From positions 3,162,001-3,226,000 of the forward strand of contig NZ_CP016438.1 in assembly GCF_001685355.1 (NCBI RefSeq): a DNA stretch of 64,000 nucleotides. Direction: 5' to 3'. Shown piece by piece: positions 5,447 through 48,307 of the stretch. Below the pieces are notes generated by a model. It was given only the letters and a program-made list of their open reading frames with translations. It was not told where the DNA came from and did no database searches. Each line of letters begins with the position of its first letter. The stretch's first letter is position 1. This DNA is from Streptomyces lincolnensis. Lineage in GTDB: Bacteria > Actinomycetota > Actinomycetes > Streptomycetales > Streptomycetaceae. The position numbers and the translations under genes are program-made.

Positions 5447-6682
5447 ATGCCGTGTCCAGCTCTCCCCGAGGGGTTCGACTTCACCGATCCCGATCTGCTG
5501 CAACACCATGTGCCGCTGGCGGAGCTCGCCGAAGTGCGCCGGGCGGAACCGGTGTGCTGGATCCCCCAGCCGTCCAACCTCGCCGGTTTCGAGGACGAGG
5601 GGTACTGGGCGGTCACCCGGCACGCCGACGTCAAGTACGTCTCCACCCACCCGGAGCTGTTCTCGTCGTACCTCAACACGGCGATCATCCGCTTCAACGA
5701 GCACATCGAGCGGGACGCCATCGACGCGCAGCGGCTGATCCTGCTCAACATGGATCCGCCGGAGCACACCCGGGTCCGCCAGATCGTGCAGCGGGTGTTC
5801 ACCCCGAGGGCCATCCGCGCCCTGGAGGACAACCTCCGCTCGCGCGCCCTCGCCATCGCCGCGAACGCCCGCGCCCGCACCGGCTCCTTCGACTTCGTCG
5901 CCGAGGTCGCCTGCGAACTGCCCCTCCAGGCCATCGCGGAGCTGATCGGCATCCCGCAGGACGACCGGGCCAAGATCTTCGACTGGTCCAACAAGATGAT
6001 CTCGTACGACGATCCGGAGTACGCGATCACCGAGGAGGTCGGCGCGGAGTCGGCCACCGAACTCATCGCGTACGCCATGAACATGGCCGCGGACCGCAAG
6101 GAGTGCCCCGCGAAGGACATCGTGACGACGCTGGTCTCGGCCGAGGACGAGGGCAATCTCGCCTCGGACGAGTTCGGGTTCTTCGTGCTGATGCTGGCCG
6201 TCGCCGGCAACGAGACCACCCGCAACGCCATCACCCACGGCATGCACGCGTTCCTCACCGAGCCCGGGCAGTGGGAGCTGTACAAGCGGGAGCGGCCGGT
6301 CACCGCCGCGGAGGAGATCGTGCGGTGGGCCACCCCCGTCAACTCCTTCCAGCGGACCGCCACGCAGGACACCGAACTCGGAGGCAAGCAGATCAAGAAG
6401 GGGGACCGGCTCGGGCTGTTCTACGCCGCCGCCAATCACGACCCCGAGGTCTTCGAGAACCCGGACACCTTCGACATCACCCGGGACCCCAATCCCCACC
6501 TGGGGTTCGGCGGCGGAGGGCCGCACTACTGCCTGGGCAAGTCACTGGCCGTACTGGAGATCGACCTCATCTTCAACGCGGTCGCCGACGCGATGCCCGA
6601 CCTGAAGGCGGTGGCGGATCCCCGGCGACTGCGCTCCGCTTGGATCAACGGGGTGAAGGAGCTTCGGGTCCGGGCGGGATGA
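5447..6682 (+). CDS. Cytochrome P450, CYP125-like (steroid C26/27 hydroxylase type)
   Basis: This 411-residue soluble bacterial P450 shows the I-helix AGNETTRN (about 252-259), the K-helix EEIVRW (about 289) and the heme loop FGGGGPHYCLGKSLA with the thiolate ligand at C362. The C-terminal stretch LIFNAVADAMPDLK...RLRSAWINGVKEL closely resembles CYP125 of mycobacteria, which oxidises the sterol side-chain terminus before beta-oxidation. The paired FadA5-like thiolase supports that reading. CYP124/CYP142-like activity on branched lipids remains possible. The ATG follows GGAG by 10 nt. No ferredoxin gene is adjacent. Confidence 0.9.
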   Translation: MPCPALPEGFDFTDPDLLQHHVPLAELAEVRRAEPVCWIPQPSNLAGFEDEGYWAVTRHADVKYVSTHPELFSSYLNTAIIRFNEHIERDAIDAQRLILLNMDPPEHTRVRQIVQRVFTPRAIRALEDNLRSRALAIAANARARTGSFDFVAEVACELPLQAIAELIGIPQDDRAKIFDWSNKMISYDDPEYAITEEVGAESATELIAYAMNMAADRKECPAKDIVTTLVSAEDEGNLASDEFGFFVLMLAVAGNETTRNAITHGMHAFLTEPGQWELYKRERPVTAAEEIVRWATPVNSFQRTATQDTELGGKQIKKGDRLGLFYAAANHDPEVFENPDTFDITRDPNPHLGFGGGGPHYCLGKSLAVLEIDLIFNAVADAMPDLKAVADPRRLRSAWINGVKELRVRAG

Positions 6683-6690
6683 CGTAGTCG

Positions 6691-6741
6691 GTTGTCTGCG
6701 GCTTCGCGGGGGCTGGTCGCGCAGTTCCCCGCGCCCCTGAG
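6691..6741 (+). repeat. Streptomyces REP-like intergenic element, copy 1
   Basis: A 51-bp element lies between the convergent P450 and glycosyltransferase genes. It ends in GCGCAGTTCCCCGCGCCCC, a sequence recurrent in Streptomyces intergenic regions. It aligns without gaps to 41991-42041, and the last 25 bp are identical. Confidence 0.7.
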
Positions 6742-6746
6742 GGGGT

Positions 6747-8348
6747 CTAGCAGGCCCCTGGTTTGGCGTACACCACGATTTGCGCGCCGCGCTCCTGAAC
6801 GCGGTCGCACTCCTCGAAGTGCCGCTTCAGGAGCTGCCGTTTGACCTCCTCCTGCGGGAAGGGGTCGAGCGGCTGGCCCTGGGGGTCCATGAGGGCGATG
6901 ACGCGATCCGCCGCGAGGATGTGGCGGCGGATCCCGGCCGTCGGGAGTTCCGTGCCCTGGAGGGTGCGGGAGGCTGTCGGGGACTCGGCCAGGGCCAGGT
7001 CGTCCAGGCGGTCGTACACCCGGGGGTAGGAGAGCAGCCACTCACGGCGGCGGGACGGCATGAACAGGACGCCGTCGCCCGGGTGGGCGGTGCGCTGGAC
7101 GGCGTGGGCGATCGCCACGACGTCGTCCTTGCGGCTCTCCGGTGAGCGGACCAGGAGGGACCACGGCACGAGGACGGCCACCGCCGCCGCGATCGACAGG
7201 CCCGCCCAGAGCCTGCGCGAGGTGATCAGCCGGGACAGGGCCGCCCCGGCCGGCAGGGCCAGGCCCGCCATGGTGTACAGCACGTAGCGGTCGACGTACC
7301 ACGGCTTGACCAGCGAGACCAGCATGAGCAGGCCGGTCGGGGCGACCAGCAGCGGCAGCGCCAGGCGGGTCAGGGCGCCCGCACCCGCCTCGGCCGAACC
7401 AGCACGCACGAGGAGGCGGCACAGCAGCGCGCCCACGACCGCCACGGCCAGGAACTGGAGCCACATGCCCAGGCTCGGGCGGCCGAGCCAGCCCAGCTGC
7501 GCCTGCGCCTGTCCCGCGCTCACCACGGCCAGCGGTGCCACGCCCGCCGTCACGCAGGCCGCCGCGATCCCCCAGCTCCGCCACACCGGGCGCGGCGCCT
7601 TGGACCACCACAGCGTCACGCCGTGCGCCACGAGGGCGAGGGCCGCGAACTCGTGCAGCCAGCAGGCGAGTCCGAGGGTGAGGGCGTACGCCGTCCACCA
7701 GCGCGGGCGGGGTGTGTCGGTGGCGCGGACGAAGAAGTACGTCGCCCAGGTCACCCCGGCGGTGACCAGGGCGTAGGAGCGGCCCTCCTGGGCGTACATC
7801 TGCGTGATCGGCAGCAGGGCGAAGACCAGGCCGGCGAGGGTGCCGGTGCGGGGGCCGGCGAGGCGGGCGCCGATCGCGCCGACCGCGGCCGCCGCCAGGA
7901 CGGTCGCCGCCACGGAGGGCAGGCGCAGGGCGGTCAGGCCGCCGTCCCAGACGCCGAACACGGTGTGCATGAGGAGGTAGTACAGGCCGTGCACGGCGTC
8001 GATGTGGTGCAGCAGGCCCCAGATGTCGCCGAGGGAGCGGTGGGCCACCTGGTAGGTGACCGACTCGTCGCGCCACATGCTGTCGTGCCGGCCGATGCCC
8101 CACAGGCCGAGGGCCAGGGCGATGGCGGCCGGGACGGCGACCGGCAGTGCCCGTCCCGTCCGGCTCCCGCCCCGCCCGGGCCCGGCGGGTGCGTCGGAGC
8201 GCAGGCCGCCGTCGCCCCGGAGAGCGTCCCGCTCCGCGACGCTCTCGAAGTGTCCTCTGCTCACCAGGTCCTCGTCGTCCCCGTTGTCCCCGTCGTCCCC
8301 GTCGTCGGCTTCAGTGGCCCGCCGAGGGCGCTCTGTCGGTCCGCGCAT
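6747..8348 (-). CDS. Polytopic glycosyltransferase, GT39/ArnT-like (GT-C fold)
   Basis: This 533-residue membrane protein has about 10-11 hydrophobic segments from residue 68 on. The first extracytoplasmic loop carries the GT-C motif DSMWRDES, followed by YYLLMHTVFGVW, as in PMT/ArnT-type enzymes that move a sugar from a polyprenyl-phosphate donor to a protein or lipid outside the membrane. The first ~65 residues are hydrophilic with an Asp-rich run (DDGDDGDNGDDED) encoded by 9-bp DNA repeats. The true start may therefore be the GTG at 8264 rather than the ATG at 8348. As annotated it overlaps the upstream gene by 38 bp, so the two form an operon. The acceptor is unknown. Confidence 0.85.
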   Translation of the reverse strand: MRGPTERPRRATEADDGDDGDNGDDEDLVSRGHFESVAERDALRGDGGLRSDAPAGPGRGGSRTGRALPVAVPAAIALALGLWGIGRHDSMWRDESVTYQVAHRSLGDIWGLLHHIDAVHGLYYLLMHTVFGVWDGGLTALRLPSVAATVLAAAAVGAIGARLAGPRTGTLAGLVFALLPITQMYAQEGRSYALVTAGVTWATYFFVRATDTPRPRWWTAYALTLGLACWLHEFAALALVAHGVTLWWSKAPRPVWRSWGIAAACVTAGVAPLAVVSAGQAQAQLGWLGRPSLGMWLQFLAVAVVGALLCRLLVRAGSAEAGAGALTRLALPLLVAPTGLLMLVSLVKPWYVDRYVLYTMAGLALPAGAALSRLITSRRLWAGLSIAAAVAVLVPWSLLVRSPESRKDDVVAIAHAVQRTAHPGDGVLFMPSRRREWLLSYPRVYDRLDDLALAESPTASRTLQGTELPTAGIRRHILAADRVIALMDPQGQPLDPFPQEEVKRQLLKRHFEECDRVQERGAQIVVYAKPGAC

Positions 8349-38826: not shown

Positions 38827-39483
38827 ATGACAGCCGCACCGCAGTGGATCAACGGGCTCATGGACACGCTCGGCGCGCCCGGCGCCGGTATCGCCATCGC
38901 CCTGGAGAACCTCTTCCCCCCGCTCCCGAGCGAGGTGATCCTGCCGCTCGCGGGATTCGCGGCGAGCACCGGACAGATGAACCTGTGGGCCGCCCTGCTG
39001 TGGACGACGGCGGGCTCGGTGGTGGGCGCACTGGCGCTCTACGGCGTCGGCGCGCTGCTCGGGCGTGACCGCACAGTGGCGATCGCCGCCCGGCTGCCGC
39101 TGGTGAAGGTCTCCGACATCGAGAAGACGGAGGCCTGGTTCCTCAGACACGGCACCAAGGCGGTCTTCTTCGGCCGGATGATCCCCATCTTCCGCAGCCT
39201 GATCTCCGTACCGGCCGGCGTCGAACGCATGCCGCTGCCCGTCTTCCTCGGTCTGACCACGCTGGGCAGCGCCATCTGGAACACGGTGTTCGTCCTCGCC
39301 GGGTACGCGCTGGGCGACAACTGGGCCCAGGTCACCGACATGGTCTCCGCCTACTCCAAGGTGGTCCTGGTGGCGGCCGCCCTGGCGCTGGCCGTCTTCG
39401 TCGTCGTACGGCTGCTGCGGCGCCCCGGATCGGGACGCCGCAGGTCGGGTGCGCCGCGCGAGAGCGAACCGGCGGGGCGTTAA
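38827..39483 (+). CDS. DedA/VTT-family membrane protein
   Basis: The 218-residue protein has the family core LENLFPPLPSEVILPLAGFAA, VGALALYGVGALLGRD, FFGRMIPIFRSLISVPAGVERMPLPVFL and a terminal helix. The conserved R-x-x-P-x-x-R-S motif of DedA is clear. It ends with TAA, which overlaps the stop (TTAA) of the convergent HAD gene. Confidence 0.93.
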   Translation: MTAAPQWINGLMDTLGAPGAGIAIALENLFPPLPSEVILPLAGFAASTGQMNLWAALLWTTAGSVVGALALYGVGALLGRDRTVAIAARLPLVKVSDIEKTEAWFLRHGTKAVFFGRMIPIFRSLISVPAGVERMPLPVFLGLTTLGSAIWNTVFVLAGYALGDNWAQVTDMVSAYSKVVLVAAALALAVFVVVRLLRRPGSGRRRSGAPRESEPAGR

Positions 39484-40313
39484 CCGGTTCGGGCCTCCCG
39501 GCCGGTCCGGGCCTCCCGCAGGAACTCCCGCAGGATCCGCTCCCCCGCCAGCACCCCCCGCTCGGGCAGCGCGCTGATCGCCGGGGCGGTCCATGCGGCG
39601 TCGGCGAGTTCGCCGTGGCCGGGGCGCCAGCCCTTGTCGGCGGCGAGGAGGAGGTCGGCGTCGAGGAGGGAGTCGCCGGCGGCGAGGGTCAGTTCGGCCC
39701 CGGTGCGGCGGGCGACCTCGCGCATGGCGGCGCTCTTGGTGAGCGGCTTGGGGACGGCGTAGATCTTGCGGCCCTGGAGGGAGACCGTCCAGCCGCGGTT
39801 CTCCGCCCAGACGGCGAGCTCCTTCACCCAGTCCTCGGGGAGCAGTTCGCGCTCGACGACCAGGTAGGCGAAGAGGTCCTCGGCGATGCGGTGCTTGCGC
39901 ACCCACAGCGGGTCGGCGGACGTCATCAGGTGCTCGCGGACCTCGTCCAGCGGCGCGCACTCCTCGGCGAGCCGGGCCTGCACGCGCGCGTGCCAGTCGG
40001 CGTCGGTGACGCCGTCGACGAGCAGGTGCCCGCCGTTGGCGCAGATCGCGTACGTCGGGGCGGGGCCCGGCAGGTTGATGCGCTGGTACTGCTTGCGGGT
40101 GCGCGTGGTCGTGGGGACGAAGACGGCCGCGTCCCCGAGTTCGGTGAGCAGTTCGGCCGAGGTCTCGGTCATGAACGACAGCGGCCTGCTCTCGTGCACC
40201 TCGACGCACAGCAGCCTGGGCGCCCGGGCGTCCGGCATGGTCAGCGCGAGGGCCGCGGCGGAGTAGATGAGCGTACGGTCGAGATCGCTCGCGACGAGCA
40301 CCGGTGCCGGCAT
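39480..40313 (-). CDS. HAD phosphatase of the Ter-associated biosynthetic module
   Basis: The 277-residue Cof/sucrose-phosphatase-type HAD has motif I LVASDLDRTLIYS, the TTRTRKQYQRI motif II region, a large C2 cap, a KPLTKSAAMREVA lysine and LAAGDSLLDADLLLAAD motif IV. It is the last gene of an operon with the PRTase fusion (TGATG one-base overlap) and the C-C lyase. HAD phosphatases of this type are a fixed part of the Ter-linked nucleoside-like pathway, presumably removing a phosphate from the product. Confidence 0.88.
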   Translation of the reverse strand: MPAPVLVASDLDRTLIYSAAALALTMPDARAPRLLCVEVHESRPLSFMTETSAELLTELGDAAVFVPTTTRTRKQYQRINLPGPAPTYAICANGGHLLVDGVTDADWHARVQARLAEECAPLDEVREHLMTSADPLWVRKHRIAEDLFAYLVVERELLPEDWVKELAVWAENRGWTVSLQGRKIYAVPKPLTKSAAMREVARRTGAELTLAAGDSLLDADLLLAADKGWRPGHGELADAAWTAPAISALPERGVLAGERILREFLREARTGREARTG

Positions 40314-42787
40314 CAGACGTTCACCGCCCGGCCGTCGGCGCCCGTGGCGCCCCGCGTGTACTTGGGGTGGATCAACCCCACGCAGGTGTACGGGAGTTCG
40401 GCGACCTCTTCCACCGGGACACCTCTCTGTTCGGCGAGCAGTCGGACATGGTCGAGGTCGGCGCCCGCGCCGGCCTTCGCGAGGATCTTCCAGGGCACCC
40501 GGCGCAGCAGCACGCGGGTGGTCTCGCCGACGCCGGGCTTGACGAGGTTGACGTCGTGGATGCCGTACTCCTCGCTGATGCGCTCCACGGCCGCCCAGCC
40601 CTCCCAGGTCGGGGCGCGGTCGCCGGACAGCAGTTCCTTGGTCTGCGCGTCGACGGCGTCCACGACCTCGGGGAAGCGGCCGGCGACCGCGTCCAGGAAG
40701 GCCACCGACACGTCGGCTCCGGCGAGTTCGCGGTAGAACTTCGCGCCGTGGAAGTCGTCGGCGCCGACCAGGTCCGCGCGCAGGACGGTGCGTGAGATCA
40801 GGCCGGAGACCGTGGAGTTGAGGCACGCGGACGGGATCAGGAAGTCCTCGCGGGTGCCGTACGTCCGCACGCACGAGCCGGGGTCGGCGAGTACCGCGAT
40901 CTCCGGGTCGAAGCCGGTGATGCCGTCGGAGTCCTCGAACTCCTTGACGGCGTCGGCGAGTTCGCGGGTGATGGCACCCTTGCCGGTCCAGCCGTCGACG
41001 AAGACGACGTCCCGGGGGTCGTGGTGGGCGGCCAGCCAGCGCAGGGCGTTGGCGTCGATGCCCCGGCCGCGCACGATCGACACGGCGTAGTGGGGCAGGT
41101 CCAGGCCGTGCCGGAACTGGGCCCAGCGGCGCATCAGCACGCCGACGGGCGTACCGGCGCGGGCCAGCGAGACGAGCACGGGCCGCGGGGACCGCTCGGC
41201 GAGGACGAGTTCGGTGACCGCGCCGACCGCCTGCGCGATCCGCCCCGCCGATGTCTCCAGCGCCGCGTGGAACAGCTCCTGGTACTGCTCGCTCGGCTGG
41301 TACTCCACCGGCAGCGACTCCGCGTAGTGCGCGCCGCCGCTCTGGATGGCCTCCTCGCGCTCCTCGGTCGGCGCCTCCAGCGTCACGTCCGAGAGGTCCT
41401 GGAGCAGCCAGCCGACCTCCTCGGGGGCGTACGAGGAGAAGGCGGGGCCTCGGAGGGGCTCGGGGAGCATGGAGGGCCTTTCGGGGGTGTGGCTGGGGAC
41501 GACCACGAGGACGACCTGCTCGGTGTGTGCGGCGAGTTGGGCCAGGAGGCCGTCGGGGGCGTGCAGTTCGGGGGTGTCGGCGGTGGAGTCGACCACGGCG
41601 ATCACGGCGTCGAAGCCGGCGCCCGCGATGTTGTAGGCGTAGCGGTCGCCGGGGCCGTCGGCGGGGGTGTCGTGGGCCGGGAAGGTGATGCGGCTGCGGA
41701 TCGCGTAGCCCGGGTCGTCCACGGCGAGTACGGGTGAGCGGGTGGTGGTGGAGTAGGTGACCTGGGCGTCTGTGGTCTGCTCCAGCTGGTGGGCCAGGCG
41801 GAGAGGGATGTACATCAGCTCTTCGAAGCCGAGGATGTGTACGCGGTGGGCTGTGGCGGGGAGGGCTTGTGCGAGGTGGGCCGCCATTGGGGGGAGGGCG
41901 GCTTCCAGGCGTATTCGGTGGGCCGGGGTGAAGCCGTGGCGGCCGCCGTCGGGGAGGCCGTGGGGCCAGTGGAGGTCGATCCGCTTGATTGTTCGCTGCG
42001 GGCCGGTGGGGGTTGATCGCGCAGTTCCCCGCGCCCCTGAGTGAGGCATCTCGAACCGCGCTACGAGGGCCTGGCCCTTCTCCAGTACCCCTTCGGGCAG
42101 GTGCACCGTGCCCGACGCCGCTGCCACCAGGTCCACCCTCGCGTCTATCTCCCGGGCGAAGGCGTCCAGGCGGTCCGCGTCCTTCGGTGAGCGCATGTCG
42201 ACCAGGGCTACGACGACGTACCGCCCTCGCGGGTAGCGCGCGTGCAGGTCGCGGATCGTGTTGAGGATCGTGTTGCCCGTGGAGAACTCGTCGTCGACGA
42301 GGACGAGGGGGCCGTCGCCGGAGAGGAGGCCGGGATTCTCCGGGAGGAGCAGGTGTGACGTGGCGTGGGAGTGGGACTCCTCGAAGCCGCCTGCCGGGGT
42401 GAGGCCCGGGACCGGGCGGCGGGTGGAGTGGAGGTAGGGGGCGAGACCGATGCCGTCGGCGACACAGTGGCCGAGGCCGGTGGCGGTCTCGGCGTAGCCG
42501 AGGACGACCGCGCGGCTCGCCTCCTCGGTGCCCAGCAGCTCCCGCACCCGGCGACCGAGGGCGAGCCCGTGGTCGTAGACCACACGCGGTGACTGGGGTA
42601 CGTGCTTGCCGAGGACGTGGGAGACGAGCAGGTGGGCCCGCTTGGGGTTGCGGCGCAGGGCCAGCCCCAGCAGGTCGGTCAGCTGATCGTCGCCCACGAG
42701 TTCGACGCCGAGCCGTTCGGCCACCCACGTCCCGGACCAGACCCCGTCCGGTCCCGGCCGGCCCCCGTCGTTCACTGCCTTGTTCAT
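40313..42787 (-). CDS. PRTase_2 - TRSP - StiP(PRTase_1) - PELOTA fusion, Ter-associated
   Basis: The 824-residue protein combines four domains. A phosphoribosyltransferase (about 15-260) has the PRPP loop LVLVDDEFSTGNT. A TRSP domain (about 275-420) shows its name motif in STTTRSPV. A StiP/PRTase_1 domain (about 430-700) opens with FSSYAPEEVGWLLQDL and has VFVDGWTGKGAI and the conserved Cys in IPSACLNSTVSG. A short PELOTA RNA-binding domain closes it (LLRRVPWKILAKAG to YTCVGLIHPKYTRG). In many bacteria this is two genes. Comparative work on Ter systems predicts a nucleoside-like metabolite; the chemistry is unproven. A REP-like element encodes part of the linker before TRSP. The ATG at 42787 follows AAGGGA. 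Confidence 0.88.
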   Translation of the reverse strand: MNKAVNDGGRPGPDGVWSGTWVAERLGVELVGDDQLTDLLGLALRRNPKRAHLLVSHVLGKHVPQSPRVVYDHGLALGRRVRELLGTEEASRAVVLGYAETATGLGHCVADGIGLAPYLHSTRRPVPGLTPAGGFEESHSHATSHLLLPENPGLLSGDGPLVLVDDEFSTGNTILNTIRDLHARYPRGRYVVVALVDMRSPKDADRLDAFAREIDARVDLVAAASGTVHLPEGVLEKGQALVARFEMPHSGARGTARSTPTGPQRTIKRIDLHWPHGLPDGGRHGFTPAHRIRLEAALPPMAAHLAQALPATAHRVHILGFEELMYIPLRLAHQLEQTTDAQVTYSTTTRSPVLAVDDPGYAIRSRITFPAHDTPADGPGDRYAYNIAGAGFDAVIAVVDSTADTPELHAPDGLLAQLAAHTEQVVLVVVPSHTPERPSMLPEPLRGPAFSSYAPEEVGWLLQDLSDVTLEAPTEEREEAIQSGGAHYAESLPVEYQPSEQYQELFHAALETSAGRIAQAVGAVTELVLAERSPRPVLVSLARAGTPVGVLMRRWAQFRHGLDLPHYAVSIVRGRGIDANALRWLAAHHDPRDVVFVDGWTGKGAITRELADAVKEFEDSDGITGFDPEIAVLADPGSCVRTYGTREDFLIPSACLNSTVSGLISRTVLRADLVGADDFHGAKFYRELAGADVSVAFLDAVAGRFPEVVDAVDAQTKELLSGDRAPTWEGWAAVERISEEYGIHDVNLVKPGVGETTRVLLRRVPWKILAKAGAGADLDHVRLLAEQRGVPVEEVAELPYTCVGLIHPKYTRGATGADGRAVNV
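41991..42041 (+). repeat. REP-like element copy 2, inside the PRTase fusion gene
   Basis: 51 bp align without gaps to 6691-6741, with the last 25 bp identical. Here they are read antisense in frame, coding SGARGTARSTPTGPQRTIK at the PRTase_2/TRSP boundary. Elsewhere this element is intergenic. Confidence 0.75.
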
Positions 42788-42812
42788 GCGTCCCTTGGTG
42801 TTCGGCGTTGAT

Positions 42813-43979
42813 TCAGCCGGGGATTCCGGCGGCGAGGAGCTCCACGAAGCCGATGTCCTCGTTGGCCACACCGAAGACCTCGGCGCGCAGCAGGGTCCGC
42901 TCGGCCCAGGCGCGGTGCGGCTTCACTTCATTCATTTTGTTCGTGTACTGCGACCTGAGCACCCCGCCACCGCCGCGCTCCGGCCGCAGGATGTCCTGGG
43001 CGTCACTGAACTCCTCGTGGCTGACCACGGAGAGTGCGTGCACGGGCAGCACGTGGGAGGGGTGGATGCAGGTCTTGCCGAGCAGGCCGTTGGCCTGGTC
43101 GAGGGAGATCTCGCGGAGCAGCCCGTCCATGGCGTGCTCGATGAGCGCCTCGCGCAGTTCCTCGGCCTGGCCCTCCAGGAAGGGGCTGCGGCGCAGCTGG
43201 GGCTTGAACATGCGCTCCTGGACGCGGAAGTACTCCCACACCGGCCCGGTCACCGTGAACCCGGTGCCGTCGGCCCGGCCCAGCATGTTCACCACGTCGG
43301 CGATGACCGAGGCGACGATCTGGACGTCCCAGGCGGTCATGTCGGGGGCGCGGCGCAGGCCGTAGGAGGAGCAGAAGTCGGTCACGCCGAGGCGGAGGGC
43401 CAGCACGCGGTCGCGGTACTTGTCGACGGCGCGGGCGATGCCCTCCAGGGTCTCCACCCGGGACTCGCGGTACATCAGCTCGGGCGACTCCAGCACGGGC
43501 ATGGCGAACAGCCGGCGTCCGCTCGCCGCCTCGGCGCCGGAGAGGGCCTCCAGGAAGGAGATGCCGCGCTCTTCGGTGAACTTCGGCAGCACGAATCCGG
43601 ACAGCAGCCGGACGGCGGGGCCGAGCCGGCGGACGAGGTCGGGGATCTGCCGGGGGGAGCGGACCCGGATGAACAGCAGCGGGAGATCGGTGCCCGCGCG
43701 TGTGGCGAGGTCCCTGAACTGCCGTACGAGGTTCTCCTCGGCCTCCGCGACGTCCTCGTCGCCGATCGAGTCCTCCAGGCACAGCACCATCGAGACCACG
43801 CCGCGTCCGGTCTGCTTGACGATGTCGTCGGCGAGCCGGGGCCGGGTGGCCGGACTGTAGAGCGTGGCGCCGAGGGCCGCGGAGAGCAGCCGGGCCGGGG
43901 AGTCGGCGGTGAACTCGCAGGGCTGCTGGTGGAACAGGCGCTGCCGCACCTCAGGGGCGATGTGCCCGAAATGACGCAT
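42813..43979 (-). CDS. HpcH/HpaI-citrate-lyase-like TIM-barrel C-C bond lyase, Ter-associated
   Basis: The 388-residue protein resembles citrate-lyase beta/HpcH aldolases: VVSMVLCLEDSIGDEDV, PLLFIRVRSPRQI (substrate Arg), SGFVLPKF, MPVLESPELMYRE (metal Glu), ALRLGVTDFCSSYGLRR (metal Asp) and GLLGKTCIHPSHV. It matches the C-C_Bond_Lyase family found only with Ter genes. It is the first gene of the operon, 25 bp before the PRTase fusion. The ATG follows GGGGGAG; an upstream extension to 44129 is unsupported. Confidence 0.88.
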   Translation of the reverse strand: MRHFGHIAPEVRQRLFHQQPCEFTADSPARLLSAALGATLYSPATRPRLADDIVKQTGRGVVSMVLCLEDSIGDEDVAEAEENLVRQFRDLATRAGTDLPLLFIRVRSPRQIPDLVRRLGPAVRLLSGFVLPKFTEERGISFLEALSGAEAASGRRLFAMPVLESPELMYRESRVETLEGIARAVDKYRDRVLALRLGVTDFCSSYGLRRAPDMTAWDVQIVASVIADVVNMLGRADGTGFTVTGPVWEYFRVQERMFKPQLRRSPFLEGQAEELREALIEHAMDGLLREISLDQANGLLGKTCIHPSHVLPVHALSVVSHEEFSDAQDILRPERGGGGVLRSQYTNKMNEVKPHRAWAERTLLRAEVFGVANEDIGFVELLAAGIPG

Positions 43980-44130
43980 AGAGCTCCCCCGTGTTGACTG
44001 AGCGTCCCCTGTGACCGATTCACAGGTGGCCGGTAATAGTACGTAGGGACCCGTGTCGGGGGTTCCCGCAGGGCATGAATTTCTGGTAACGCGGACGAAC
44101 ACAGCCGAACAAGGCGGTATCGCCACCATG

Positions 44131-44168
44131 ACGACACCCCGGGGGATCCGGTACCCCCACGTTGTCGT
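44131..44168. promoter_or_regulatory. Two-part hairpin upstream of the plus-strand terD-like gene
   Basis: ACGACA pairs with TGTCGT and, inside, GGGGG with CCCCC, separated by a symmetric 4x4 loop, 30 nt before the TerD-like ATG. It may be an operator or mRNA structure of the divergent promoter region 43980-44197. Confidence 0.4.
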
Positions 44169-44197
44169 GACCAGGACCGAGAGGGCAGGATGGCCGT

Positions 44198-45007
44198 ATG
44201 ACGCACGCGATGCTGAAGGGGTCGAACGTCCCGCTCAGGACCACCACGGTACGCGCCGTGCTGCGCTGGGCGCCCGGGCAGGGGGTCCCGGTCGTCGACG
44301 CCTCGGCACTGCTCCTCGGCCCCGACGGTCGTGTGCGATCCGACGAGGACTTCGTCTTCTACAACCAGCCCCGGCACCCTTCCGGGAAGGTCTGGCTCCT
44401 CGGCAAGAAGCGAATGGCCGAGGGTCCCACCGACACGATCCAGACAGATCTGGCCGGTGTCGAGGCCGACGTCAGCCAGATTCTTCTGGTCGCGTCGGCG
44501 GACGGCGCCTCGTTCGACCGGGTCCAGGGTCTGCGCATTCTGCTGTACGACGCCACGGTCGCCGAGGGCGAGCCGCTGGCCTACTTCGACATCAAGCCGG
44601 AGACCGGTCAGGAGACCGCCCTGATCTGCGGCGAGCTGTACCGCCGCGGTGAGGGCTGGAAGTTCCGCGCGCTGGGCGAGGGCTATCTGAACGGCCTCCA
44701 GGGTCTGGCGACCGACTACGGCATCTCGGTGGACGAGTCGGAGGGCCTGGACTCCCCGGCCGCTCCCGACGGGCTCGCGACGACCGTCGTCCCGCCGTCC
44801 CCCGCCACTCAGCAGGCCTCGGAGATCTCCCAGCCCCTCCCTCCGGAACAGCCGACGGTCGTCCCCGCCCAGCCGGCCTACGGCTACCCCCAGCAGCCCG
44901 CCGCGGCGACGGCCCAGCCGGCTTACGGCTACCCGCCGGCGGTCTCAACCCTCCCGGACCCGGACTTCCGGCTGCCCCCGCAGGGCCCCCAGTTCATCGG
45001 ACGGTAG
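44198..45007 (+). CDS. TerD-family protein with Pro/Tyr-rich tail
   Basis: The 269-residue protein has an N-terminal TerD domain (1-185) with [28 protein letters not shown] and [24 protein letters not shown]. The tail 200-269 is Pro/Gln/Ala-rich with two QPAYGYP repeats and looks disordered. TerD proteins bind Ca2+ and act in stress, tellurite and phage-resistance responses. It is divergent from the lyase-PRTase-HAD operon and convergent with the TerA-like gene. Confidence 0.92.
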
Positions 45008-45030
45008 GTGCGGCGGGCCGGGAGCGGGCG

Positions 45031-45768
45031 TCAGCGCTCGGCCTTCGCCTTGTAGCCCCGCCCCCACTGCAACCCCCACCCGTACAAGCGGTCCAGTTCC
45101 CCCTGGAACCCGTACACGAAGCGCACCTCGCGCCGGACGACCAGCTCACCCTTCACGTTCTCGATCATCACCACCGCGCAGGACCGCGCCTGCGGATGCC
45201 GTTCGTCGAGATGTATCTCGATCCGCGGTCCGTTGCTCGGGTACAGCGTGACGATGGCGTGCGTACGGTCGAACGCCGGCGTCTGGTCGTAGATGTACAC
45301 GAACACCAGCAGCCGCTTGATGGCGTCCTTGTGGTCGAGGTTGACGTACATCGTCTCCCCGGACGCCGACCCGAACCGGTCGTCCCCGCTGAGCTTCACG
45401 TACGGCGCCTCGTTGGTGTCCCCGAGGAACCCGCCCAGCGGCTGTACGACGCCCTTCGTGCCGTCGGCCAGTTCGTACAGGCAGCCCAGGTCGAGGTCGA
45501 CGTTGACCATGCTCTGGCTGTGCCCGAGGACCTCGGGCGGTTTGAGCGCCTTGAAGGGGTGCCGCAGCAGGCTCTCCCGCTGGGACCCGCCCAGGTCGGA
45601 GGTCCGCATCCGCCAGGCCAGGTTGATGCGCAGATGCCCGGTGGCCGCGCCCTGTTTGGTGAGGGAGACCTGGCTGTGCCGTTTGGTCAGTTCGATGGCG
45701 TTGGTGGCGGCGTTTCCCGAGTCGAAGTCGGTCTCGCGGCCGCGCCAGAGTCCGTCGAAGAAGCCCAT
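45031..45768 (-). CDS. TerD-superfamily protein, TerA-like
   Basis: The 245-residue protein keeps a TerD-type beta-sandwich pattern: NAIELTKRHSQVSLTKQG, VNVDLDLGCLYELADG, ADGTKGVVQPLG, DDRFGSASGETMYVNLDH, RLLVFVYIYDQTPAFDRTHAIV and a Trp-rich end YGWGLQWGRGYKA. The Ca2+-type DxDLD stretch (VDLDLG) is shorter than in TerD. It most resembles TerA-like members of tellurite clusters. The ATG follows GGGGCGGG. Confidence 0.85.
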   Translation of the reverse strand: MGFFDGLWRGRETDFDSGNAATNAIELTKRHSQVSLTKQGAATGHLRINLAWRMRTSDLGGSQRESLLRHPFKALKPPEVLGHSQSMVNVDLDLGCLYELADGTKGVVQPLGGFLGDTNEAPYVKLSGDDRFGSASGETMYVNLDHKDAIKRLLVFVYIYDQTPAFDRTHAIVTLYPSNGPRIEIHLDERHPQARSCAVVMIENVKGELVVRREVRFVYGFQGELDRLYGWGLQWGRGYKAKAER

Positions 45769-45862
45769 TCCCGCCCCACTTCGCTGTCAGCGCCCGAGGG
45801 GGCGGCACCGGGAGTCGTCCCCGACACCGCCCCGCTCAGAGCGTTCCTCACGCAGAAGCTGA

Positions 45863-47011
45863 TCACACCCCGGACGAGACCTCAGTCTTGTCGTCCGAGC
45901 CCGCCGCTTTTCCCTCTGCGGCCGCGATCGCCTTGTTGCGGCGGACGGAGGACCAGAAGGACCAGGCGATCAGGATCACGCCGATCGAGCCGGTGATGAG
46001 CTCGTGGATCTCGTACTGGATGGTGACCAGCAGGATCATGGCGAGGGCGCCGATCGCGTAGTGCGCGCCGTGCTCCAGGTAGACGTACTCGTCGAGGGTG
46101 CCCTGGCGGACCAGGTAGACGGTCAGCGACCGGACGTACATGGCGCCGATGCCGAGGCCCAGCGCCATCAGGACGATGTCGTTGGTGATGGCGAAGGCGC
46201 CGATGACGCCGTCGAAGGAGAACGACGCGTCCAGGACCTCCAGGTAGAGGAACATGAAGAACGCGGCCTTGCCGACCATGACGACCGCCGACTTGGGCTT
46301 GCCCTCGCGCTCGGCCTTCTCCTCGGCCTCGTGCTCGCGCTCCTCCTCCTCTTCGAGCTTGTCCTCGAAGAAGCCGGAGAGACCGCCCACGATCATGTAG
46401 GTGATCAGGCCCGCGATACCGGAGAGCAGGACCGTCTCCGCCTTGTCGGCGTGGGTGCCGCCGTGCTGGTGGGCGTGGGTGGCGAAGGTCATCGCGGAGA
46501 TCATCAGCACGATCAGGGCGATGCAGACCGACAGCATGTCGATCTTGCCGAGCTTGGCGAGCGGCCGCTCCAGCCAGCCGAGCCACTTGATGTCCCGGTC
46601 CTCGAAGATGAAGTCGAGGAAGATCATCAGCAGGAACATACCGCCGAAGGCGGCGATCGACGGGTGGGCGTCCGTCACCAGCTGCTGGTAGCGGTCCTTG
46701 TCGGTGAGGGCGAGGTCGACGGCCTCGATCGGCCCCATCGAGGCGCTGACCGCCACGATGACGACGGGGAAGACCAGTCGCATGCCGAAGACCGCGATGA
46801 GGATGCCGATCGTGAGGAAGATCTTCTGCCAGAAGGCACTCATCTTCTTCAGGATCCCGGCGTTGACCACCGCGTTGTCGAACGAGAGGGAGATCTCGAG
46901 GACGGAAAGGATCGCCACGACACCGAAGGCGGTCCACCCCCCGTAGAAGACCGCCGCGACGAGGCCGAGCGCGGTGACCGCGAACGACCAGCCGAAGGTT
47001 TTCAGAACCAC
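45863..47011 (-). CDS. TerC-superfamily integral membrane protein (DUF475)
   Basis: The 382-residue protein has about 9 helices with the family SLSFDNAVVNAGILKKM near residue 42 and a second half EVLDASFSFDGVIGAF; the acidic residues in these repeats are the presumed metal site. A long acidic cytoplasmic loop (KLEEEEEREHEAEEKAEREG) separates the halves. TerC proteins work with TerD and are related to Mn2+ exporters. It starts at GTG 47011 with GAGG 12 nt upstream. Confidence 0.92.
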   Translation of the reverse strand: MVLKTFGWSFAVTALGLVAAVFYGGWTAFGVVAILSVLEISLSFDNAVVNAGILKKMSAFWQKIFLTIGILIAVFGMRLVFPVVIVAVSASMGPIEAVDLALTDKDRYQQLVTDAHPSIAAFGGMFLLMIFLDFIFEDRDIKWLGWLERPLAKLGKIDMLSVCIALIVLMISAMTFATHAHQHGGTHADKAETVLLSGIAGLITYMIVGGLSGFFEDKLEEEEEREHEAEEKAEREGKPKSAVVMVGKAAFFMFLYLEVLDASFSFDGVIGAFAITNDIVLMALGLGIGAMYVRSLTVYLVRQGTLDEYVYLEHGAHYAIGALAMILLVTIQYEIHELITGSIGVILIAWSFWSSVRRNKAIAAAEGKAAGSDDKTEVSSGV

Positions 47012-47060
47012 TGGCTACCCAATCCTCTAAGTACGGATCTCTACCACGCCGTACTCGGCT

Positions 47061-47636
47061 TTACGAAACATTGACTCCGAAGTCTAGAGCGATGCCCCGC
47101 AGCCCCGACGCGTACCCCTGGCCGACCGCCCTGAACTTCCACTCGCCCTGATGGCGATAGACCTCGCCGAAGATCATCGCGGTCTCGGTGGAAGCGTCCT
47201 CGGAGAGGTCGTACCGGGCGAGTTCCTGGCCGTCGGCCTGGTTGACCACGCGGATGAAGGCGTTGCTGACCTGGCCGAAGGTCTGGCCGCGCTCGTCGGC
47301 CATGTGGATGGAGACGGGAAAGATGATCTTGTCGCACTGTGGCGGCACCTTGGAGAGGTCGATCAGCAGCGATTCGTCGTCGCCGTCGCCCTCACCGGTG
47401 AGGTTGTCACCGGTGTGCTCGACCGAGCCGTCCGGACTCTTGAGCTGGTTGTAGAAGATGAACCACTCGTCCCCCATCACCCGTCCGCTCGTGCACATCA
47501 GTGCGCTGGCGTCGAGGTCGAAGTCGGCTCCGGTGGTGGATCGAGCGTCCCAGCCGAGCCCGATCATCACCTGGGTGAGATTGGGTGCGGCCTTGGACAG
47601 GGAGACGTTGCCTCCCTTGGCGAGCGTGACGCCCAT
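47061..47636 (-). CDS. TerD-family calcium-binding stress protein
   Basis: The 191-residue protein is a canonical Ter[30 protein letters not shown] (first Ca2+ site), [28 protein letters not shown] (second acidic site), [21 protein letters not shown] and the end [14 protein letters not shown]. It is a tandem paralogue of the next gene upstream, separated by a strong hairpin. Confidence 0.95.
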
Positions 47637-47681
47637 TGCGCTGGTCCCTCCCCGATACGGTGCTGCTTCTGTTGTCCTGCG

Positions 47682-47718
47682 CGTCCGGCGCCGCACGCAA
47701 ACCGTGCGGCGCCGGACG
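47682..47718 (-). terminator. Perfect 16-bp hairpin between the tandem terD genes
   Basis: CGTCCGGCGCCGCACG and CGTGCGGCGCCGGACG pair perfectly around a 5-nt loop, 13 bp after the first TerD stop and 46 bp before the second start. It probably terminates or attenuates transcription between the paralogues, or stabilises the upstream mRNA. Confidence 0.85.
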
Positions 47719-47731
47719 AAGACCCGCAAGA

Positions 47732-48307
47732 TCAGACGTTCACGCCGAAGTCCTGGGCGATGCCGCGCAGGCCGGAGGCGTAACCCTGGCCGATGGCGCG
47801 GAACTTCCACTCCGCGCCGTGCCGGTAGAGCTCACCGAAGACCATCGCGGTCTCGGTGGAGGCGTCCTCGGAGAGGTCGTAGCGCGCGATCTCGGCGCCG
47901 CCGGCCTGGTTCACGACGCGGATGAACGCGTTGCGGACCTGGCCGAAGGACTGCTGGCGGTTCTCGGCGTCGTAGATCGAGACCGGGAAGACGATCTTCT
48001 CGACGTCGGCCGGGACGCCTGCGAGGTTGATCTTGATCTGCTCGTCGTCACCCTCGCCCTCACCGGTGAGGTTGTCACCGGTGTGCTCGACCGAGCCGTC
48101 GGCGCTCTTGAGGTTGTTGAAGAACACGAAGTTCGCGTCGCTGCTGACCTTGCCCTCGGCGTTCGTCAGCAGTGCGCTGGCGTCGAGGTCGAAGTCCGTG
48201 CCGGTGGTGGTGCGGATGTCCCACCCCAGACCGACGATGACCGCGGTCAGTCCCGGCGCCTCCTTGCTCAGTGATACGTTGCCGCCCTTGCTGAGGCTGA
48301 CTCCCAC
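47732..48307 (-). CDS. TerD-family calcium-binding stress protein
   Basis: The 191-residue protein is closely related to its downstream neighbour ([71 protein letters not shown]). It starts at GTG with GGAGGACTC just upstream, a strong ribosome site, suggesting high expression. It is likely the primary TerD of the cluster. Confidence 0.95.

Follow-up and report, generated by a model that had tools for sequence, protein, structure and literature searches.

The Ter stress locus in the window (the 64-kb stretch of Streptomyces lincolnensis DNA analysed here) is an ordinary, genus-wide member of a known, predicted biosynthetic system, and neither its fused four-domain enzyme nor its lack of an ATP-grasp gene is an anomaly. 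What stays of interest is a three-gene pathway with two handles on it: the TRSP domain, a probable remnant of a phosphoribosyltransferase (PRTase), and the HAD phosphatase, with a relative whose phosphatase activity has been measured.

The enzyme operon consists of three minus-strand genes: a CitE/HpcH-type C-C bond lyase (42813..43979; C-C_Bond_Lyase, PF15617, Pfam E 2.6e-123), then after 25 nt an 824-aa enzyme encoded in one frame from an ATG at 42787 (40313..42787), and finally a 277-aa HAD-type phosphatase (39480..40313), whose start overlaps the stop of the fusion gene as TGATG. Along the fused enzyme Pfam places PRTase_2 (42110..42673, E 3.9e-67), TRSP (41537..41950, E 1.6e-38), StiP (40685..41437, E 4e-106) and PELOTA_1 (40367..40606, E 8.2e-35), likewise on the minus strand. 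Lyase and HAD are thereby found together, PRTase_2 with TRSP and StiP with PELOTA, and TerD/TerC genes adjoin. The original prediction of a lyase, four-domain PRTase fusion and HAD operon agrees with Pfam, with the PDB match and motifs of the HAD gene and with the 25-nt and TGATG spacing; the C-C_Bond_Lyase, PRTase_2, TRSP, StiP and PELOTA_1 profiles it proposed for a search all match. The motifs it had read from the sequence are also present, namely the canonical PRPP loop LVLVDDEFSTGNT of PRTase_2 (42269..42307, minus), TTTRSP in TRSP (41732..41749, minus) and the second PRPP-type loop VFVDGWTGKGAI of StiP (40970..41005, minus), which is atypical in having one acidic residue. Lyase residues E69, D70, E164 and D201 are kept at ≥95% (102 sequences; short sequences were left out before the conservation counts for lyase, PRTase_2, StiP, PELOTA and HAD), and searching the PDB by sequence gives the lyase weak matches to the acyl-CoA lyases 9nzb and 8khl.

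Beside the operon lie a TerD-domain gene on the plus strand (44198..45007, Pfam E 4.1e-43) and, on the minus strand, a TerA-like gene (45031..45768), a DUF475/TerC-type membrane protein gene (45863..47011, Pfam E 4.9e-139 and 3.8e-20) and two TerD genes (47061..47636, E 1.5e-83; 47732..48307, E 1.7e-87). The last we take to be probably the counterpart of SCO2368, which is said to be the subject of a 2015 paper by Daigle. Pfam bears out the three TerD genes and the TerC-type gene that had been described as abutting the operon, but the TerD gene at 44198 runs divergently and stands outside it. The TerA-like assignment also stands, with 35% identity to the annotated terA gene of an E. coli plasmid (locus L061) and a sub-threshold match to the Pfam TerD profile (E 0.028). 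The source genome has 15 TerD-profile matches, three of them in this locus. PADLOC assigned eight proteins to 0 families.

Fold models of the fused enzyme were made by AlphaFold from two half alignments (each containing the window's row; the N-half alignment also took 35 of 73 rows, the C-half one 31 of 79 and, in addition, the C half from the Clostridial locus L127), a whole-protein alignment having been dropped when unfused N-half rows were seemingly aligned to the C half. Mean pLDDT was 82.0 for the N half and 87.8 for the C half. Foldseek matches the N-half model to adenine PRTases (5y07, E 4.7e-6), giving PRTase_2 an APRT-like fold, and its PRPP-loop residues D166, E167, T170, G171 and T173 are kept at ≥95%. 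By sequence, the fusion had no match in the PDB at E 0.1 and none in NCBIfam, and a viral contig scan with the single fusion sequence found no relative.

TRSP is likely a degenerate paralogue of PRTase_2 that has lost the PRPP loop, a homology short of proof that is argued from profile scores with their controls and from helix/strand order. In hhalign, TRSP scores 77.4% against PRTase_2 (E 2e-5), the next best among 26 profiles being 1.9%; with a separately built alignment the comparison gives 54% and 48%, and the reversed controls 1.2% and 0.8%. The order of helices and strands predicted for TRSP, as we read the model, agrees with PRTase_2.

StiP looks like a further PRTase-like domain in its modelled fold. 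The top Foldseek rows for the C-half model are HGPRTs, with probability mostly 0.9-1.0, low TM-scores and a best E of 1.9e-3, and none of the matches falls below E 0.001. Since hhalign of StiP against PRTase_2 gives 3.7%, profiles without a tie, the argument for StiP as a PRTase is one of fold and loop; and since that loop lacks the second acidic residue, StiP may not use PRPP. The conservation pattern speaks against the name 'cysteine protease StiP' carried by Pfam and RefSeq, as no cysteine appears to be kept through the family: there is none among the StiP residues kept at ≥95% (127 sequences), and C217, kept at ≥90% in a 33-row alignment, is missing from the gammaproteobacterial and phage rows. 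The PELOTA_1 model resembles L7Ae in fold, matching L7Ae of an H/ACA RNP (2hvy_D) over 90 columns with probability 1.00 and E 0.018. The kink-turn motif of L7Ae is NExTK. PELOTA keeps K42, P43, G46, E47, T49 and R50 at ≥95% (126 sequences), so that E, T and R of that motif are kept and the Asn position is mostly Gly or Ala.

Even at E 10, Pfam matches the gene at 39480..40313 to no HAD family, its sole match being a weak one to RHH_5; the HAD call comes from its motifs, kept at ≥95% in 85 sequences (D10, D12, T14; T69; K193; G213, D214, D218), and from a PDB match to 'trehalose phosphatase' (6d3v/6cj0, E 6.4e-10). The HAD protein from the Ter operon of the Pseudomonas plasmid pA681-IMP can be aligned with 6d3v from one end to the other and is near-identical to it, with cysteines at 85, 231 and 239. 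PMC6838324, which cites Cross 2018, describes Cys85 and Cys231 as specific to a P. aeruginosa extra-chromosomal trehalose-6-phosphate phosphatase with measured phosphatase activity, and states that assays of such phosphatases strictly need trehalose-6-phosphate as substrate. The end-to-end alignment and the two shared cysteines suggest that a HAD of the Ter pathway has probably been assayed already, under the name trehalose-6-phosphate phosphatase. The window HAD keeps the catalytic motifs but is only ~26% identical to the pA681-IMP protein, and the activity of the plasmid enzyme may therefore not carry over to it.

We examined how common the fusion is in 150 Streptomyces genomes, the source genome included. 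PF11202 matches 147 of these and the whole fusion protein 149, and in 136 (again counting the source genome) the fusion is encoded in one frame: 72 give a single one-frame alignment over ~97% or more of the fusion (counted by eye), and in the stretches of 64 more, read with profiles, PRTase_2 and StiP share a frame in all 64 and all four domains do in 63. The remaining one of these 64 (L176, from G063) has a fused frame without PELOTA at the threshold used, and its alignment ends at residue 693 of 824. Fusion was judged by spanning alignments and otherwise by profiles on genomic stretches; open-frame length was rejected as proof because long spurious frames occur at this G+C content; in one locus (L026) the StiP frame runs to 818 aa although PRTase_2 lies in a different one. 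Among the other genus genomes, three (G036, G048, G058) have a stop or a change of frame at the TRSP-StiP linker that separates the halves, G140 is frameshifted within TRSP, seven have the locus cut by a contig end, two (G032, G102) match the fusion only in part, which we read as fragmented assembly, and one (G135) has no match. In two genus genomes (L009, L015) the fusion is split by one in-frame TGA codon within the linker, followed three bases later by an ATG. The original prediction was thus right to call the genes normally separate when set against proteobacterial operons, but the fusion is usual in the genus and no oddity of this organism. It had also named, as a sign of an ordinary locus, a split PRTase in close relatives with an ATP-grasp gene immediately outside; the three split genomes supply the former, and in none of them does an ATP-grasp gene lie just outside.

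Beyond the genus, StiP was present in 69 of 295 genomes sampled from the class (33 Streptomyces and 36 others), and loci were read for 27 of the 36. Eight of the 27 are fused and 19 split, with the order lyase, PRTase_2-TRSP, StiP-PELOTA in every one and HAD following in 26. A tree of 60 StiP-PELOTA sequences requires at least seven changes between fused and split, six of them among rows up to L060; its rows were thinned from 114 by taking one locus in four from L067 onwards together with L116 and L127, after skipping 13 loci, L071 among them (mostly for contig ends, a frameshift, duplicates or no PRTase_2 match). By this tree the fusion is labile, gained or lost repeatedly. Other fusions in the same set, a lyase-PRTase_2-TRSP one in L116 and a four-domain one in L127, point to one pathway; the Streptomyces fusion would join two PRTases without changing it. 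The L116 fusion (5818-7995), from Allobaculum mucilyticum, is a single frame of 726 aa. The fusion protein has matches in 2,567 plasmid records. One of the plasmids, from Streptomyces sp. NBC_01471 (L064/L012), carries a second, lone StiP-PELOTA gene (545313-546443 of the record) with a StiP domain 60% identical; a gluconokinase and an alcohol-dehydrogenase-like gene adjoin it, and the stretch read has no PRTase_2 or lyase.

The original prediction found no ATP-grasp gene in the window, and indeed a profile built for this analysis finds no ATP-grasp frame at E ≤10 over the 64 kb. It offered two readings, a shorter pathway or one completed in trans. The former is better supported, since an ATP-grasp match is missing from all 27 of the other Actinomycetes loci (0/27). 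In a mostly Clostridial set, the best 80 of at least 596 loci with a bias towards Clostridia that stems from the first query sequence, the loci matched by profiles built for this analysis number 75 for PRTase_2, 62 for lyase, 44 for HAD, 39 for TerD and 20 for ATP-grasp; for the 53 of these 80 that have 5 kb or more on both sides, the numbers are 52, 45, 30, 31 and 13. ATP-grasp is therefore unmatched in 60 of the best 80 (of at least 596), some of which are cut by contig ends, and in 40 of the 53, and in L127 the four-domain fusion adjoins an ATP-grasp gene. Judging by these counts and by L127, ATP-grasp is an accessory to the Ter operon and not a defining member, and the fusion is no substitute for it.

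From the anatomy and conservation of the locus, its likely folds, the lability of the fusion and the optional ATP-grasp, as they appear in sequences and models, we infer a pathway with its chemical steps, product and signal role. We lean cautiously towards reading the locus as the core version of the Ter stress system in Streptomyces, with a two-PRTase enzyme that would make a ribosylated small molecule for the HAD protein to dephosphorylate. A membrane-associated, metal-binding TerD/TerC arm would stand beside the three-gene enzyme operon. The CitE-like lyase may make or trim a small acceptor, which the APRT-like PRTase_2 would couple to phosphoribose from PRPP; StiP, with its atypical loop, could act as a second PRTase and carry out another ribosyl step, and TRSP would partner them as a PRTase without activity. 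The HAD phosphatase would then strip a terminal phosphate to leave a ribosylated (nucleoside- or disaccharide-like) small molecule, presumably sensed by the Ter proteins. PELOTA may tether the enzyme to structured RNA or the ribosome, or may once have been an RNA module and now serve regulation, and ATP-grasp would be an optional tailoring step. Counted against this account are the HAD and TerD frequencies (44 and 39 of the best 80 of at least 596 loci, some cut by contig ends). The link from signal to TerD is also weakened by 14 loci of the Actinomycetes family f15 with TerD unmatched within the stretch read (L024, L026, L028, L030, L033, L035, L037, L039 and L045-L050).

Completion in trans would have an orphan Ter-type ATP-grasp elsewhere in the genome supply the ligation step. 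The source genome does have an orphan match to PF15632 (ATPgrasp_Ter, E 7.4e-35) at 8516153, 5.3 Mb from the operon, along with a further weak match that we read as CarB, and in the class sample all 19 of the 295 genomes with such a gene fall among the 69 with StiP. That association is suggestive but confounded, as 16 of the 19 are Streptomyces and three are f15, where StiP is present in 23 of 23 genomes searched. In the genus, the orphan protein occurs in 62 of 150 genomes (58 close, four at 37-43% identity) against 149 of 150 with a fusion protein match, and a search of 26 genomes placed none of the ATPgrasp_Ter matches close to the operon, most of them looking like CarB (~1100-aa frames). 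We consider supply in trans improbable, and an obligate form of it was rejected on the count of 62. Two genomes, G032 and G102, had been taken as StiP-less with an ATP-grasp gene and so as telling against the link; this argument was dropped, as both hold parts of the fusion gene.

If the acceptor were a sugar, the HAD might act on a phosphoribosyl-glycoside or on trehalose-6-phosphate itself. The 'trehalose phosphatase' name in the PDB of the close plasmid relative, the coincidence of Cys85 and Cys231 with the studied enzyme and the strict substrate requirement stated in PMC6838324 favour this, as does a glycogen phosphorylase gene near the operon in two of three scanned f15 loci (L028, L033), though that neighbourhood may be mere synteny. 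The low identity (~26%) of the window HAD to the plasmid enzyme, the lack of a trehalose-6-phosphate synthesis gene among the identified operon genes, and PRTase folds that point to APRT/HGPRT make a sugar pathway unlikely. Acetyl-CoA-synthetase-like genes were also seen near the operon in L028 and L035 when the three loci were scanned. The L7Ae-like PELOTA fold, with K42, P43, G46, E47, T49 and R50 kept at ≥95% in 126 sequences, would suit an enzyme directed to RNA, its PRTases brought to a kink-turn RNA or tRNA for phosphoribosylation; yeast Rit1 is a precedent for phosphoribosylating tRNA. With Gly or Ala mostly in place of the Asn of NExTK, and with a lyase in the operon that is expected to act on small acceptors, we regard RNA as a very unlikely target. 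A more elaborate version, to which we give little credence, would have the three PRTase domains (canonical, degenerate and atypical) and the L7Ae module produce a phosphoribosyl-glycoside signal, dephosphorylated by a HAD akin to trehalose-6-phosphate phosphatase, with no amide ligation.

Under the preferred reading, a ribosylated small molecule made by the core operon, a dispensable ATP-grasp would mean a pathway reduced to three genes in tractable Streptomyces, and the link from the operon HAD to a purified, assayed enzyme would be the first biochemical handle on it. If TRSP is indeed what is left of a PRTase and StiP is PRTase-like, names in wide use would need correcting.

Anantharaman, Iyer and Aravind reportedly described a Ter-linked biosynthetic operon in 2012 and predicted a nucleoside-like product for it; the window locus has the same enzyme families beside TerD/TerC, and the original prediction was right to make this link. 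PMC7824862 attributes to Ter the production of nucleoside or nucleotide derivatives and names TerB and TerD as possible sensors, and PMC5571608 cites a PELOTA link to the Ter PRTase; our literature search found no paper naming the product or reporting the structure of a metabolite. A record deposited as a phage (L066, MT836648.1) looks like a bacterial contig, holding a Ter cluster together with frames that, judged by eye, are similar to methionyl-tRNA synthetase and TatD. The Ter locus of jumbo phage ME3 (PMC7824862) shares PRTase_2, HAD, StiP-PELOTA, TerC and TerD with the window but is split, and lyase, TRSP and ATP-grasp are all unmatched over the stretch read. Compared with APRT/HGPRT-type PRTases, the fused enzyme appears to share the fold, with the PRPP loop present in PRTase_2, atypical in StiP and lost in TRSP. 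The P. aeruginosa extra-chromosomal trehalose-6-phosphate phosphatase has its near-identical protein within the pA681-IMP Ter operon, the window enzyme being the ~26% identical relative. Two gammaproteobacterial plasmids have the order ATP-grasp, PRTase_2-TRSP, HAD, StiP-PELOTA, lyase, and pA681-IMP has it too, interrupted by other genes; on these three plasmids the HAD gene between the two halves would bar a simple fusion, whereas in the Streptomyces operon HAD comes last, the halves are fused and there is no ATP-grasp.
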